A stretch of 13,068 nt of DNA from Deltaproteobacteria bacterium (GTDB lineage: Bacteria; JAUYMQ01). The notes beneath the pieces were generated by a model. That model was not told where the DNA came from, ran no database searches, and was given only the letters and a program-made list of their open reading frames with translations. This document shows, piece by piece, positions 78 through 6,651 of this stretch; position 1 is the first letter of the stretch; every line of letters starts with the position of its first letter. Location: positions 1 to 13,068 of the forward strand of contig JAUYMQ010000281.1 in assembly GCA_030698575.1 (NCBI GenBank), in the 5' to 3' direction. The position numbers and the translations under genes were made by a program.

Positions 78-1727
78 ATGGGCACGCGTCTTGAAAAGCT
101 CCTCAGTGAATTCGAAACCCTGAAGCGCCGGTACGAGATTACCAAAGATCAGCTCTACGAGGCTGAGAAGCAGAACGAGAAGCTCGTAGCGGCTCTTCAG
201 GACGCCAAGACGCAGATCGACGCTCTGAAAGAAGAGGTCGACAAGCTCTGCGCCCCTCCGAACACCTACGGCGTTTTCCAGCGGGCCAACAAGGACAACA
301 CCGTCGAGATCCTGGTCGACGGCCGGCAGATGCGCGTGAACGCGCATCCGCGCGTGGACATTCCCATCCTCCAGGAAGGCCAGCAGGTCGTCCTGAACGA
401 GGCCTTCAACGTTATCGAGGCCTGTGACTACGAGACCCGCGGCGAGGTCGTCACGATCAAGGAAGATCTCGGCGATGGTCGCGCGGTGGTTCTCGGGCGC
501 GCCGACGAGGAGCGCGTGGTCTCCTTCTCGGGTCCTATGCGGCGCCAGAAGCTGGAAGTCGGCGATCCGCTCCTGATCAATCCCAGGACGGGCATAGCCA
601 CCGAGAAGCTGCCGAAGTCGCAGGTCGAGGAAGTCGTACTCGAAGAGGTTCCCAACATCGAGTACAGCGACATCGGCGGACTCAGCGCCCAGATCGAGAC
701 GCTCCGCGACGCCATCGAGCTTCCCTACCTCTATGCCGACGAATTCCGGAAGCACAAGCTCAATCCGCCGAAGGGCATCCTTCTGTACGGCCCGCCGGGG
801 TGCGGCAAGACGCTCATTGCGAAGGCGGTGGCCCACAACCTCGCCAAGCGTATCGAGGAGCGGAGCGGCAAGGAAACACGGAGCTACTTCCTCAACGTGA
901 AGGGGCCCGAACTGCTCAACAAGTACGTGGGCGAGACGGAACACAAGATCCGCGAGGTCTTCAAGAAGGCGCGGGAGAAGGCCGAGCAGGACATGCCCGT
1001 CGTGCTGTTCTTCGATGAGATGGATTCGCTCTTCCGGCTTCGTGGATCCGGGATTTCCTCGGACATGGAAGCCACCGTGGTCGCGCAGTTCCTTTCGGAG
1101 ATCGACGGCGTCGAATCGCTGAGAAACGTGATCGTCATCGGCGCTTCGAACCGTCAGGACCTGATCGATCCCGCCGTGCTTCGGCCGGGCCGGCTCGATC
1201 TGAAGATCAAGGTTGCCCGCCCGGGTGAGGCCGGTGCGACGGAGATCTTCTCGAAGTACCTCACGCCCGATCTTCCGTTCCATGAGGACGATCTGGCTGC
1301 CTACGGCGGCGATCCGAAGAAGCTCGTTGAAGAGAAGATCGTCCAGATCGTCTCGGAGATGTATGCCACGAGCGAGGAGAACAAGTTCCTCGAGGTGACT
1401 TACGCCAAGGGCGATCGCGAGGTGTTCTACTTCAAGGACTTCTCGAGCGGCGCGATGATCGAGAACATCGTGGCCAGGGCGAAGAAGATGGCCGTGAAGC
1501 GGTACATCACGATCGGTGAACGGGGGATAAAGTTCACCGATCTCGAGCAGGCGGTCCGCGACGAGTACAAGGAGAACGAGGATCTGCCGAACACGACGAA
1601 CCCCGACGACTGGGCCCGGATCTCCGGCGCCAAGGGAGAGCGGATCGTCAACGTGCGGACGCTCATCAGTGGCATCAGCCGGAACGAGAAGACCATCGAG
1701 AACGTCACGGCCGGCCAGTACCTGTAA
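78..1727 (+). CDS. mpa: Proteasome-associated AAA ATPase (Mpa/ARC)
   Basis: Ring-forming unfoldase that captures pupylated proteins and threads them into the 20S proteasome in the cytoplasm. Visible in order over 549 residues: an N-terminal heptad-rich coiled coil (about 1-57), which binds Pup in the family; two OB-type interdomain segments (about 62-190); then one AAA module. The module has Walker A GPPGCGKT (238-245), pore loop KYVG (282-285), Walker B VVLFFDE (308-314), sensor-1 Asn358 and arginine fingers Arg369/Arg372. The segment [19 protein letters not shown] (437-455) and the stretch [18 protein letters not shown] (500-517) match mycobacterial Mpa closely. The protein ends in GQYL, the proteasome-docking tail of Mpa. 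It is about 60 residues shorter than M. tuberculosis Mpa (609). The ATG at 78 has GGAGGAG (60-66) upstream and keeps the whole coiled coil. It is separated from dop by a terminator-like hairpin, so it may be its own transcript. Confidence 0.97.
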
Positions 1728-1914: not shown

Positions 1915-3402
1915 ATGGCGGTCAAGAAGGTAATGGGCACCGAGGTCGAATACGGGATCACAGTCGTCAACGACCGCGACTTCGATCCGATCTCGAGCTG
2001 CGTTCTTCTCGTAAACGCCTATCGCGACAAGACCGATGCGAAGATTCTCTGGGACTATGACCAGGAGAATCCTCTCGCCGACGCCCGGGGCTTCCAGGCC
2101 GACGGCGAGAAGTACACGCCGAACCAGCAGGAGAACATCACCCGCAACAAGACGCTGGTGAACGGCGCCCGCTACTACGTCGATCACGCCCATCCGGAAT
2201 ACTCGACGCCCGAGTGCACGAACGTCCTCGATCTCGTCAAGCACGAGAAGGCCGGCGAGCTCATCCTCGAGCGAAGCCGCATCGAGGCCAACGCGCTCGT
2301 GCCTGATCGCTGCCAGATCCTCGTCTACAAGAACAACAGCGACAGGAAAGGGAACAGCTACGGCTGCCACGAAAACTTCCTGATGGATCGGCGGACTTCC
2401 TTCAAGCAGATCATCGAGAAGTTCATCCCGTTCCTCGTGAGCCGGCAGGTCTACACGGGCGCGGGAAAGGTGGGATCGGAGAACCGGGCCGGCGCCGTCG
2501 ACTACCAGATCAGCCAGCGATCGGACTTCTTCGAGACCGAGGTGGCCCTCGACACCATGGTCAAGCGGCCGATCATCAACACCCGTGACGAGCCGCACGC
2601 CGATCGCGAAAAATACCGGCGACTGCATGTCATCGTGGCCGATTCGAACATGGCCGAGCCGACGATCTACCTGAAGAGCGGCGTGACTGCGATCATTCTG
2701 TCGATGATCGAGGACGGCGCCATCCAGACCGACCTCGTGATAAGAGACCCGGTCAAGGCCATGAAGGAGATCTCGCACGACACCTCCTGCACGAAGAAGG
2801 TCCAGCTCGACAACGGGAAGAAGCTTACCGCGATCGAGCTCCAGGAGGAGTACCTGGATCTGGCGCACAAGTACTTCGCCACCCGGGAAGCCGACGCGGT
2901 CACACGGGACGTGATCGTCCGCTGGGAGTCCGTCCTCAAGCGGCTGAAAGAAGATCCCGATCAGCTCGGCAGGGAGATCGACTGGGTGATCAAGAAGCAG
3001 TTGATTCAGGCCTTCATGAACCGCAAGAACTATACATGGGACAGTCCACGGGTCGGGATGATCGATCTGCAGTACCACGACATCCGGCCGGAAAAGGGGC
3101 TGTATCATCTTCTCGTGAGGCAGGAGAAGGTCGATCGCATCGTCTCCGATCAGGACATCGAGGACGCGGTCTACAACCCGCCGGAGGATACGCGAGCATA
3201 CTTCCGGGGGATGTGCCTCAAGCGGTATGGCTCGGCGATCTTTGGTGTAAACTGGGACTCGATTTCCTTCAACCTCAAGGATCAGCCCATCAAGCGCATC
3301 CTGATGGCCGAGCCGCTGAAGGGGACGAAGGAGCACGTTCAGGAACTTCTCGATAGGTCGACGAGCACCGAAGAGCTCGTTGCGAACCTCACCGCCGAGT
3401 GA
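1915..3402 (+). CDS. dop: Depupylase/Pup deamidase Dop
   Basis: Carboxylate-amine-ligase-fold enzyme that hydrolyses the isopeptide bond between Pup and substrate lysine, and in GGQ-type systems also deamidates Pup. Of 495 residues, GTEVEYG (8-14) provides the metal/ATP glutamates (Glu10 aligns with mycobacterial Glu8). Asp90 in NGARYYVDHAHPEYS is the counterpart of the Dop nucleophile Asp95. The Dop-loop, absent from PafA, is present between WDYDQENPLADARGF (46-60) and the Asp90 motif. The C-terminus WDSISF...PLKGTKEHVQELLD matches Dop rather than PafA. The ATG at 1915 has AGGAG at 1905-1909. The Pup encoded next door already ends in Glu, so only the depupylase activity should be needed here. 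The internal segments GNSYGCHEN and DEPHADREKYRRLHVIV are more PafA-like than in mycobacterial Dop. Confidence 0.96.
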   Translation: MAVKKVMGTEVEYGITVVNDRDFDPISSCVLLVNAYRDKTDAKILWDYDQENPLADARGFQADGEKYTPNQQENITRNKTLVNGARYYVDHAHPEYSTPECTNVLDLVKHEKAGELILERSRIEANALVPDRCQILVYKNNSDRKGNSYGCHENFLMDRRTSFKQIIEKFIPFLVSRQVYTGAGKVGSENRAGAVDYQISQRSDFFETEVALDTMVKRPIINTRDEPHADREKYRRLHVIVADSNMAEPTIYLKSGVTAIILSMIEDGAIQTDLVIRDPVKAMKEISHDTSCTKKVQLDNGKKLTAIELQEEYLDLAHKYFATREADAVTRDVIVRWESVLKRLKEDPDQLGREIDWVIKKQLIQAFMNRKNYTWDSPRVGMIDLQYHDIRPEKGLYHLLVRQEKVDRIVSDQDIEDAVYNPPEDTRAYFRGMCLKRYGSAIFGVNWDSISFNLKDQPIKRILMAEPLKGTKEHVQELLDRSTSTEELVANLTAE

Positions 3403-3461: not shown

Positions 3462-3470
3462 AAGGAGGAG
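3462..3470 (+). promoter_or_regulatory. Strong ribosome binding site that fixes the pup start
   Basis: AAGGAGGAG contains the full AAGGAGG complement of the 16S rRNA tail, with 6 nt between AAGGAGG and the ATG at 3475. It is the best ribosome binding site in the cluster. It supports the long form of Pup, because the next in-frame Met is residue 59, inside the conserved core. Confidence 0.8.
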
Positions 3471-3474
3471 CAAC

Positions 3475-3738
3475 ATGAAGATCCACGCAATCCTCGGTCG
3501 CGACCCTGACAGCCAGGGCTTGCTCCAGGTTACCCGCGCTGCGGATCAGACCCAGTCGCGGAAGACCCAGGACAAGGAATCGGGAAAGTCCAAGGAGACC
3601 CGGGAAGCCAAGGACCTCTCGGAACGCGGCAAGAAGCTAAAAGAAGACATGGACGAGCTCGTCGACGAAATCGACGAAGTCCTGGAGGAGAACGCTGAGG
3701 AGTTCGTGAAGAACTACATTCAGCGGGGAGGGGAGTAA
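3475..3738 (+). CDS. pup: Prokaryotic ubiquitin-like protein Pup (GGE type, extended)
   Basis: Small, mostly disordered modifier that PafA attaches through its C-terminal Glu to target lysines, marking them for the proteasome. Of 87 residues, the last 35 carry the Pup signature: LVDEIDEVLEENAEEFVKNY (62-81) followed by IQRGGE. This amphipathic stretch is what folds onto the Mpa coiled coil in the family. The end is GGE, so the ligation-competent Glu is encoded directly and no deamidation is required. Classical Pup is about 64 residues, and here there are about 20-25 extra N-terminal residues beginning MKIHAILGRD. Arg84 stands where M. tuberculosis Pup has Lys61 (QKGGQ), while Lys79 sits five residues further in. 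The ending differs from the R(T/S)GE tails I recall for UBact, so I call it Pup. It sits between dop and prcB, and its TAA is 1 nt from the prcB start. Confidence 0.95.
   Translation: MKIHAILGRDPDSQGLLQVTRAADQTQSRKTQDKESGKSKETREAKDLSERGKKLKEDMDELVDEIDEVLEENAEEFVKNYIQRGGE
3725..3735 (+). promoter_or_regulatory. Ribosome binding site for the TTG start of prcB
   Basis: The purine run GGGGAGGGGAG lies inside the last pup codons and ends 4 nt before a TTG codon at 3740. No in-frame ATG occurs until residue 73, well after the catalytic Thr. TTG is therefore the only start that retains the propeptide and has a ribosome binding site. Confidence 0.65.
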
Positions 3739-3739
3739 A

Positions 3740-4543
3740 TTGTTCTTCGGGAAAGGCCGTTATGATGGCTCTTCCTTCATCGAGCTTTTGAGGACCGAGT
3801 GCGAGCATCTGACGCCTCGCCTCGACATCGCGGCCGACAACGACGGCCGGCTTGCCAGCGGCATTCCGCATGGCACCACCGTCGTCGCCCTTCGCTATGC
3901 CGACGGGGCCGTGATTGCGGGCGACCGCCTGGCGACTGAGGGTTATCAGGTCGCGATGCGCAGCATCGAGAAGGTCTTCAAGACCGATGAACATTCGGCG
4001 ATGGCGATCGCGGGCGCCGCCGGGCCCTGCATCGATATGGCGCGACTGTTCCGGATCGAGCTGGAGCACTACGAGAAGATCGAGGGCGTCGAGCTCGACC
4101 TCGAAGGGAAGGCCAACAAGCTGGGACAGATGATCCGGCAGAACCTCCCCATGGCCATGCAGGGGCTGGTGGTCGTGCCGATCTTCACCGGCTTCGATCT
4201 CAAGCTCTCGAAGGGGCGTATTTACAAATACGACGTGACCGGCGGCCACTACGAGGAAACCGACTATTACGCGATCGGCTCCGGCGGAAAGGATGCCCGC
4301 AGTTCCTTCAAGAAGACCTACCGGACCAACGCCTCCGAGGAGGAGGCGCTCCGGATGGTTCTCGAGGCGCTCTTTGACGCCGCCGACGAGGACCGGGGCA
4401 CGGGCGGCGTCGACTCGGTCCGCGGCATCTACCCGACGGCGAAGACCGTGACCAGCAAAGGCATTATCGACATCCCCGAGGATCGGATCCGGGCCCTGTA
4501 CGAAGGCGTTCTGGCGAATCGGCGCGCGGTGGAGGCTGCCTGA
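3740..4543 (+). CDS. prcB: Proteasome subunit beta PrcB
   Basis: Catalytic Ntn-hydrolase subunit of the 20S core, made as a proenzyme that self-cleaves to expose an N-terminal Thr. In the 267-residue precursor, IPHG|TTVVALRYADG places the cleavage after Gly45 and the nucleophile at Thr46. Counting from it as Thr1, the family's Asp17 and Lys33 are both present (Asp62 in AGDR, Lys78 in IEKVF). GSGG at about 180-183 and the long helices after it fit the beta fold. The propeptide of 45 residues is a little shorter than the 57 of M. tuberculosis. It begins with TTG 1 nt after the pup stop, which suggests coupling to pup translation. Its last stop base is the first base of prcA, consistent with balanced alpha/beta synthesis. 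Confidence 0.96.
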   Translation: MFFGKGRYDGSSFIELLRTECEHLTPRLDIAADNDGRLASGIPHGTTVVALRYADGAVIAGDRLATEGYQVAMRSIEKVFKTDEHSAMAIAGAAGPCIDMARLFRIELEHYEKIEGVELDLEGKANKLGQMIRQNLPMAMQGLVVVPIFTGFDLKLSKGRIYKYDVTGGHYEETDYYAIGSGGKDARSSFKKTYRTNASEEEALRMVLEALFDAADEDRGTGGVDSVRGIYPTAKTVTSKGIIDIPEDRIRALYEGVLANRRAVEAA

Positions 4544-5241
4544 TGGCGATGCCCTTCTACGTTTCGCCCGAACAGATGATGCAGGACAAGGCCGAGTATG
4601 CCCGCAAGGGCATAGCCCGGGGGAAGTCCATCGTCGCGATCGAGTACCAGGACGGAATCGCACTGGTGGCCGAAAACCCCAGCCGCAGCCTTTCGAAGCT
4701 CTCCGAGATATATGACAAGATCGCATTTGCCGGAGTCGGGAAGTACAGCGAGTTCGAGAACCTCCGCAAGGTCGGGATCCGCTACGCCGACGTGAAGGGG
4801 TACTCCTACAGCCGACACGACGTCACCGCCAAGTCTCTCGCGAACGCCTACTCCCAGGCCATCGGGCAGGTGTTCACGCAGGAGATGAAGCCGCTCGAAA
4901 TCGAGATTCTCATTGTCGAGGCGGGCGATGAAGGCCATCCGAACGAGATGTATCATCTTCTCTACGACGGAACGATCACCGACTACCGGCGATTCGTCGT
5001 GATGGGAGGCGCGAAGGAATCGGCGATGCAACTTCTCGAGGAGTCCTATCGCGACAACCTGACGTTGACCCAGGCTGTTGATCTCTGCCAGAAGGCGCTC
5101 CTCAAGACGAACGGAAACAAGGAGCTGACGGCCGACACGATCGAGGTCGCGATACTGAACCGAAAGCGAGGGGGCAGAAAGTTCCAGCGGCTCCAGGCCG
5201 CAGAGCTTCAAGCAATACTGGAGGAGGCGGGGAGCGCCTGA
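4543..5241 (+). CDS. prcA: Proteasome subunit alpha PrcA
   Basis: Non-catalytic outer-ring subunit that gates the 20S core and receives the C-terminal tail of the ATPase. Its 232 residues open with MAMPFYVSPEQMM, aligning with M. tuberculosis MSFPYFISPEQAM, the gate region. Next come ARKGIARGKSIVAIEY (20-35) and AENPSRSLSKLSEIYDKI (43-60), the conserved alpha-type segments. FVVMGG (151-156) is also family-typical. There is no processing site or N-terminal Thr, as expected for alpha. The ATG at 4543 overlaps the prcB TGA as TGATG, with GGAGG at 4531-4535. The C-terminus is shorter than the mycobacterial acidic tail. Confidence 0.96.
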   Translation: MAMPFYVSPEQMMQDKAEYARKGIARGKSIVAIEYQDGIALVAENPSRSLSKLSEIYDKIAFAGVGKYSEFENLRKVGIRYADVKGYSYSRHDVTAKSLANAYSQAIGQVFTQEMKPLEIEILIVEAGDEGHPNEMYHLLYDGTITDYRRFVVMGGAKESAMQLLEESYRDNLTLTQAVDLCQKALLKTNGNKELTADTIEVAILNRKRGGRKFQRLQAAELQAILEEAGSA

Positions 5242-5244
5242 CCA

Positions 5245-6651
5245 ATGCGGAAGAGAATCTTCGGCCTGGAAAATGAGTACGGGATCGTCTTCACCCCGGA
5301 AGGCCGAAAGACCTTGCCCGTCGAGAAGGCGATCCGCTTCCTCTTCGAAAAACTCATTACCACCGAGCACTTCCTCAACGTCTTCCTCGAAAACGGCGCG
5401 CGATTCTACCAGGACACCGGTTGCCACCCCGAGTACGCCACTCCCGAGTGCGCTTCGCCGCGCGACCTCGTGCTCTATGATCGCGCGGGCGAGCGAATCC
5501 TCGAGGATCTTCAGGCCTACGCCGAGGGCAAGGTGCGCGAGGACGGCGTCGCCGGGACCCTTTCGATCTTCAAGAACAACACCGACTTCGTGGGAAATTC
5601 CTACGGTTGCCACGAGAACTACCTGGTCGACCGCGACGTTGACTTCTACTACCTGGCAGAGCAGCTCATCCCGTTCCTCGTCACGCGCCAGATCTATACG
5701 GGTGCGGGCAAGGTCTTCCAGACGCAGGACGGCGTTCACTACTGCATAAGCCAGCGCGCGCAGCACATCTATCAGAAGATCTCGGGAACCACGACGAACG
5801 ACCGGAGCATCATCAACACGCGCGACGAGCCGCACGCCGACCGCGAGAAGTACCGGCGGCTCCACGTGATTGTCGGCGATTCGAACATGTCGGAGTACAC
5901 CAATTTCCTCAAGGTTGGCACCGCAGCGGTCGTCCTTCAGATGATTGAAGACAACTTCATCAAGAAGGATCTGACGATGCGCAACCCGGTCAAGTCGATC
6001 AAGGACATTTCCTACGACGTGACCTGCAAGAAGCGGATTCGCCTCGATAACGGGAAGGAGTACAGCCCGATCGAGATCCAGCGCGAGTACCTCGACCTGG
6101 CGCAGGACTATCAGGAGCGCTACGGAGTCGACGATCAGCTCAAGGACGTCATCCAGAAGTGGGCCTACGTGCTGGGCAAGCTCGAGGACGACCCCAACAA
6201 GCTCGATCGGGAAATCGACTGGGTCATCAAGCGCCACATGATCGAGGAGTACCTCGACCGCCGTGGAATGCGGTGGACCAACCCGCGCGTCTATATGATG
6301 GATCTCCAGTTCCACGACATCCGGCGGGACAAGGGGCTGTTCTACTTGCTCGAAAGGACGGGCCGCGCCGAGCGCATCCTGAATGACGAGGAGATCGAGC
6401 ACGCCAAGGAGCATCCGCCGAGCGATACGCGCGCCAAGCTGCGGGGCGACTTCATCAAGCTCGCCCGGAAGAACAATATCCAGTACGATCTCGACTGGTC
6501 GAACATCCGGCTCGGCAATCTTCTGAACGTCCGCGTCATCTGCAACAACCCTTTCGAGACCGACACCGAGAAGGTGACCGAGCTGGTAAGGACGATCCAG
6601 AAGACGAATCTCCGCAAGACCTCGCTCTCGAAACTCGTCATCCAGAGCTGA
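5245..6651 (+). CDS. pafA: Pup--protein ligase PafA
   Basis: ATP-dependent ligase that phosphorylates the C-terminal Glu of Pup and joins it to a substrate lysine. Of 468 residues, RIFGLENEYG (4-13) gives Glu9 and Glu11 at the same positions as in M. tuberculosis PafA. Asp57 in NGARFYQDTGCHPEYATPEC aligns exactly with the mycobacterial catalytic Asp57. FKNNTDFVGNSYGCHENYLV and the INTRDEPHADREKYRRLHVI block are diagnostic. There is no Dop-loop between Gly13 and Asp57, which separates it from the paralogue encoded by dop. The C-terminal Pup-groove domain (WSNIRLGN onward) is present and the length is close to the 452 of M. tuberculosis. It starts 3 nt after the prcA stop with GGAG at 5231-5234, so it is the last core gene of the operon. 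Confidence 0.96.
   Translation: MRKRIFGLENEYGIVFTPEGRKTLPVEKAIRFLFEKLITTEHFLNVFLENGARFYQDTGCHPEYATPECASPRDLVLYDRAGERILEDLQAYAEGKVREDGVAGTLSIFKNNTDFVGNSYGCHENYLVDRDVDFYYLAEQLIPFLVTRQIYTGAGKVFQTQDGVHYCISQRAQHIYQKISGTTTNDRSIINTRDEPHADREKYRRLHVIVGDSNMSEYTNFLKVGTAAVVLQMIEDNFIKKDLTMRNPVKSIKDISYDVTCKKRIRLDNGKEYSPIEIQREYLDLAQDYQERYGVDDQLKDVIQKWAYVLGKLEDDPNKLDREIDWVIKRHMIEEYLDRRGMRWTNPRVYMMDLQFHDIRRDKGLFYLLERTGRAERILNDEEIEHAKEHPPSDTRAKLRGDFIKLARKNNIQYDLDWSNIRLGNLLNVRVICNNPFETDTEKVTELVRTIQKTNLRKTSLSKLVIQS

Follow-up and report, generated by a model that had tools for sequence, protein, structure and literature searches.

A clade of long Pup proteins with a conserved motif at the end of an N-terminal extension

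We analysed a stretch of 13,068 nucleotides from a Deltaproteobacteria bacterium (contig JAUYMQ010000281.1), the whole of which is called the window below. It carries a complete Pup-proteasome operon in the order ARC-dop-pup-prcB-prcA-pafA:

78 to 1727, forward strand: ARC/Mpa proteasomal AAA ATPase, 549 aa, with C-terminal QYL (TIGR03689, 734.6 bits)
1915 to 3402, forward strand: dop, depupylase/deamidase, 495 aa (TIGR03688, 578 bits)
3475 to 3738, forward strand: pup, 87 aa, with C-terminal GGE and stop codon TAA
3740 to 4543, forward strand: prcB, 20S beta subunit, with a TTG start (TIGR03690, 301 bits)
4543 to 5241, forward strand: prcA, 20S alpha subunit (TIGR03691, 315.9 bits)
5245 to 6651, forward strand: pafA, Pup ligase (TIGR03686, 550.7 bits, slightly below the cut-off of 551.3; PF03136, 514.7 bits)

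The product of 3475-3738 is a true Pup, as judged by family model, terminus and gene neighbours. Residues 25-87 matched PF05639 with 73.4 bits against a cut-off of 27, the protein matched TIGR03687 with 54.7 bits against 41.45, the terminus has the GG[EQ] form, and all five partner genes lie in the window. The helical region also matched the Pup chains of 3m91, 3m9d and 7px9. An earlier note made from the sequence had described an 87-residue Pup with a long N-terminal extension, and the reading frame and both model matches bear this description out. The extension reaches about 21 residues beyond the canonical start, and the gene is divided as follows:

3462 to 3468, forward strand: Shine-Dalgarno sequence AAGGAGG, perfect, followed by a 6-nt spacer (AGCAAC) and the pup ATG at 3475
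3475 to 3519, forward strand: distal extension, residues 1-15 (MKIHAILGRDPDSQG), where relatives share no conserved sequence
3520 to 3546, forward strand: conserved motif LLQVTRAAD, residues 16-24, immediately 5' of the canonical Pup start position
3547 to 3594, forward strand: linker (QTQSRKTQDKESGKSK), corresponding by alignment to the usual disordered Pup N-terminus, of low AlphaFold confidence
3595 to 3723, forward strand: ARC/PafA/Dop-binding helical region, residues 41-83, an AlphaFold helix whose centre is well predicted
3727 to 3735, forward strand: C-terminal Gly-Gly-Glu, ready for ligation without deamidation

Compared with mycobacterial Pup (Rv2111c, 64 aa; 3m91, 3m9d, 7px9), the window protein has the same helical core for binding to ARC/Mpa, PafA and Dop, the GG[EQ] terminus, the operon partners and an N-terminal threader that is predicted to be disordered. 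It differs in having about 21 residues ahead of the mycobacterial Met position, with a hydrophobic-x-x-Ala-Ala-[ED] patch, and in ending with Glu, so that deamidation is not needed. Among 100 Pups compared, the last residue (codon 3733-3735 in the window) was Glu in 59 and Gln in 41, with at least 24 switches on the Dop tree. Dop was kept with either ending, as expected for a depupylase.

The start of pup is well defined. The perfect Shine-Dalgarno sequence points to it, as had been proposed, and relatives agree: all 79 long Pup genes adjoining dop start with ATG, and 72 of these 79 have a match of at least 4 bases to the Shine-Dalgarno consensus. The claim that no later in-frame ATG lies between this start and the core was likewise correct, the only in-frame alternative in the window gene being a TTG at codon 16, which lacks a Shine-Dalgarno sequence. 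The gap between the dop stop codon and the pup ATG had a median of 32 nt in long Pups and was 20-39 nt in the short Pups nested among them. This similarity indicated that the extension consists of extra codons and is not a mis-assigned leader.

We then considered how widely long Pups occur. Using the window Dop as a query, we obtained 76 loci, nearly all from Myxococcota/'Deltaproteobacteria' metagenome-assembled genomes (MAGs), with Dop identities mostly of 63-72%; PF05639 surveys of other genomes added more lineages. These first sets contained 100 distinct Pups, of which 81 had 79-104 aa and 19 had 64-72 aa. The extension, whose absence from related genomes the earlier note had named as a finding that would count against it, is thus kept in relatives. 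Later sets brought two more long Pups (L234, L235). They also supplied some 60 short Pups of Actinobacteria and of the G508 phylum. The extension was absent from all 30 actinobacterial Pup loci extracted and from all 30 loci extracted from the phylum of G508, and no Dop relatives were found among viral contigs. As for the window genome itself (G000), the relatives returned belonged to the same domain only and none to its own phylum, yet its Dop is 72% identical to those of Myxococcota MAGs.

Several genomes showed other arrangements. G380 and G648 have two Pup genes each, one in the proteasome operon (L057 and L120 were compared) and a second, unlinked one (L127, L128) that is also long (HLLLGISYATVDQQK); the latter lies near an MFS-transporter-like gene and, in G380, also a P-type-ATPase-like gene. 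In the phylum of G508, a Pup match was present in 83 of 95 genomes and short Pups were common. Pup did not adjoin the proteasome operon in the three loci inspected from this phylum (L160, L162, L163), and in L163 it lies between genes named by eye as MoaB-like and FmdB-like. G963 holds two Pup systems: L234 (C873), with a long Pup and a Dop 61% identical to that of the window, and L236 (C895), with a divergent Pup match and a Dop-like protein at 44%, the listed contamination of 8% meaning that this assembly may be mixed.

We defined the long-Pup clade by at least 13 residues before the canonical start, with -3 occupied by a large hydrophobic residue and the junction by Ala-Ala (or Ala/Ser/Thr/Cys), and by a Dop that groups with the clade; the window Pup has 21 residues before this start, with V19, A22, A23 and D24. 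A Dop tree with 93 rows required five changes of the long/short label, read most simply as one gain and four losses. When two extra long rows and the short Pups of the G508 phylum were included and a mixture model was used, all long rows fell into one clade of 63 (58 long and 5 nested short) with an SH-aLRT of 97, this being the only support measure, from a quick search, on a tree in which several deep rows have long branches. Outside it were Actinobacteria, the G508 phylum and Poribacteria-type rows. The window Dop lies inside the clade, beside a large Myxococcota group, on a long branch. The nested losses are L005/L009/L010, L004, L069 and L050. The Dop trees thus place a single gain of the extension at the root of a clade that comprises several deep lineages and in which Myxococcota/'Deltaproteobacteria' MAGs predominate. 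Four or more losses followed within this clade, and they show that the extension is dispensable.

Alignment of the extensions revealed that their conserved part lies at the end, right before the usual Met position. The pattern is a hydrophobic residue, two further residues, then Ala-Ala-Glu/Asp; examples are LPIYGAAES, LLRFASAAES, PFYMAAGE, SIWMAASG, FFHVITASAD, GIVTCAEGG and LVQVVQAAGEQ, beside LLQVTRAAD in the window. Among 54 non-redundant extensions, Ala made up 91% of the first Ala column and 87% of the second, and all 54 had a large hydrophobic residue three positions before the first Ala. Summed over the three best motif columns, residue frequency was 2.26 and hydrophobic fraction 2.31, against maxima of 1.20 and 1.70, respectively, in 40 alignments of shuffled extensions. 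A subclade running from L023 to L075 has extensions that start M-A-[RNKT]-F-[IL] (MARFI, MANFI, MAKFI), a possible second conserved patch at the tip, found mainly there.

Selection was estimated from 24 pairs of relatives. The pN/pS was lowest in the core (0.05), followed by the motif (0.22) and the linker (0.37), and reached 0.72 in the extension before the motif. These and the following values are approximate, since the pairs were hand-picked as tree neighbours and the sites are few. With fixed anchoring, the motif (residues 16-24) gave 0.35 (95% interval 0.19-0.58), the middle of the extension a nearly neutral 0.72 (0.59-0.85) and residues 2-5 an unconstrained 0.91 (0.59-1.35). The pN of the motif was below that of the rest of the extension in 100% of bootstraps. 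The motif is under purifying selection at the protein level. The first ten residues are not the conserved part: MKIHAILGRD, which the earlier note had singled out as the beginning of a tail that could carry an extra signal, is not a conserved signal, and the emphasis on it was misplaced.

The spacing between the motif and the ARC-binding helix is constant as well. In long Pups, 38-42 residues (SD 0.9) separate the first motif Ala from the Asp that is D60 in the window Pup, while 13-36 residues (SD 3.9) precede this Ala in relatives, the rest of the motif included. Short Pups, too, have a linker of fairly constant length, their Met and this Asp being 35-44 residues apart (SD 2.0), so that a constraint on the linker, rather than on the motif, may explain the constant spacing or part of it. 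The Gly content of the linker is 28% over all long Pups; that of the window Pup is not Gly-rich. Collectively, a conserved motif, shared by a large non-actinobacterial group and set at a fixed spacing from the helix, indicates that the extension is probably functional.

Two resemblances of the motif to known elements were rejected. By inspection, it is not a signal peptide for signal peptidase I, its hydrophobic patch spanning only 4-6 residues and its -3 residue being bulky in most members. Nor does it look like an internal copy, at positions -3/-2/-1, of the C-terminal HbYX gate-opening motif: only 40 of 81 sequences have an aromatic residue at -2, and the motif lies away from the C-terminus.

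What might the extension do? In mycobacteria, the Pup N-terminus acts as the threader, and turnover is blocked when it is deleted (PMC5515868). In the Mpa-20S structure, the first 15 Pup residues span ~50 Å and M1 of the M. tuberculosis protein lies ~35 Å above the 20S gate. The N-terminus extends no deeper, which leaves pore loop 2 only partly engaged, and at this point, ahead of unfolding, the complex stalls (PMC8755798). The proposal that the extension alters how degradation is initiated fits this known role. It has become our leading explanation, in a more specific form that we hold tentatively, at somewhat less than an even chance: the extension would be a longer disordered threader, adding ~20 residues that end in a hydrophobic-x-x-Ala-Ala-[Glu/Asp] patch serving as a grip or anchor. 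With the Pup helix docked on the ARC coiled coil, the extension would enter the pore first. By residue count, D60 of the window Pup corresponds to D37 of mycobacterial Pup, which places the patch 5-9 residues past Met1. In the mycobacterial Mpa-20S register, it would then occupy the exit chamber, ~5-20 Å above the 20S gate at 3.3 Å per residue, and the tip, ~23 residues past Met1, would pass through or beyond the gate; this estimate applies the geometry of the mycobacterial complex to a distantly related lineage. The bulky patch might be gripped by the pore loops (loop 1, then loop 2) or by the gate region, ahead of a slippery glycine-rich linker, and such a grip would favour commitment to unfolding.

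Structure prediction is consistent with a disordered segment. AlphaFold on Pup alone gave the extension low confidence (pLDDT 46-55, predicted disordered) and the core as a helix, with low confidence elsewhere. A tentative helix at residues 11-28 had a pLDDT of ~50 and was not believed. In a model of the Dop-Pup read-through fusion, made in frame through the dop TGA, the whole Pup part was of low confidence, the known core included, so that this model is uninformative on contacts of the extension. A parallel is offered by the initiation regions of 26S proteasome substrates and the hydrophobic segments gripped by ClpX (PMC6677533), which work alike in that a disordered segment presents bulky residues to an AAA+ pore. 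They are not homologous, and in the window the segment belongs to the tag itself. A bolder extrapolation of the grip model, which we consider rather doubtful, is that the whole clade carries a built-in, gate-spanning initiator: its constant distance from the ARC-binding helix would put the patch, in docked Pup, between unfoldase and 20S gate and couple tag recognition to gate engagement or to committed unfolding, a function absent from mycobacterial Pup.

Other readings of the same data deserve attention. The patch could be a short linear motif for another partner, be it a chaperone, another protease or an adaptor involved in the turnover of free Pup, a second PafA/Dop site or a proteasome cofactor. 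A short, selected hydrophobic motif in a disordered region with a variable flank is indeed the usual signature of such elements; however, no partner was found, and when ARC, Dop, PrcA, PrcB and PafA were compared, essentially no residue tracked the nested losses of the extension. The lack of such residues in ARC, PrcA and PrcB, together with the dispensability of the extension, speaks against the grip model too. We regard this possibility as real, if on the unlikely side. A cleaved leader, cut at Ala-Ala with the motif as protease recognition site, seems to us unlikely. It would account for the leader-like character of the region before the motif, with its near-neutral evolution and varying length, and for the location of Ala-Ala at the junction; moreover, nested short Pups begin M-A-[ED], so that after removal of Met they would have the same Ala-Glu/Asp N-terminus as the cleaved product. 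Yet a bulky residue (Tyr, Trp, Val, Phe) stands at -3 of the presumed cut, which is unsuited to signal peptidase I; no candidate gene for the processing was identified, and Ala-Ala is absent in deep members (GIVTCAEGG, HVITASAD, WATGG). Besides, the tag is ligated by its C-terminus, and a cut N-terminus would have no obvious use.

A functionless extension, retained by descent, is improbable: its repeated loss and nearly neutral distal part speak for this reading, but conservation of the motif extends over several deep lineages, and comparison of close pairs shows it to be constrained. A true start further downstream, at the codon 16 TTG or at an internal Met as in some relatives, which would leave the extension untranslated or make it an occasional isoform, is very improbable. 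There are 26 ATGs close to the junction in 24 of 79 long relatives, but most of them have no Shine-Dalgarno sequence. Nearly all upstream ATGs do have one and stand at the usual distance from dop, and selection acts at the protein level on the motif, which precedes the internal Met.

The threader with a grip patch remains the reading we prefer. As regards novelty, non-actinobacterial Pups of 50-90 residues, a range that covers the 87 of the window and includes the deltaproteobacterium Plesiocystis, were reported by Iyer et al. in 2008 (PMC2588565), and length alone is therefore not new. In that paper, the Plesiocystis system, unlike that of the window, is membrane-linked and apart from the proteasome genes; a search of its main text showed no mention of an extension or an N-terminal motif. 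Beyond the 50-90 range, a search of openly available papers returned no earlier account of the long-Pup clade, its motif or pupylation in these lineages.

Present knowledge of how Pup works comes from the short Pups of Actinobacteria. The natural losses within one clade supply matched pairs of small proteins, for example, L004 versus L006/L007. If a large non-actinobacterial clade has a selected N-terminal patch, the way in which the unfoldase captures its substrates and commits to them may differ from the mycobacterial model.
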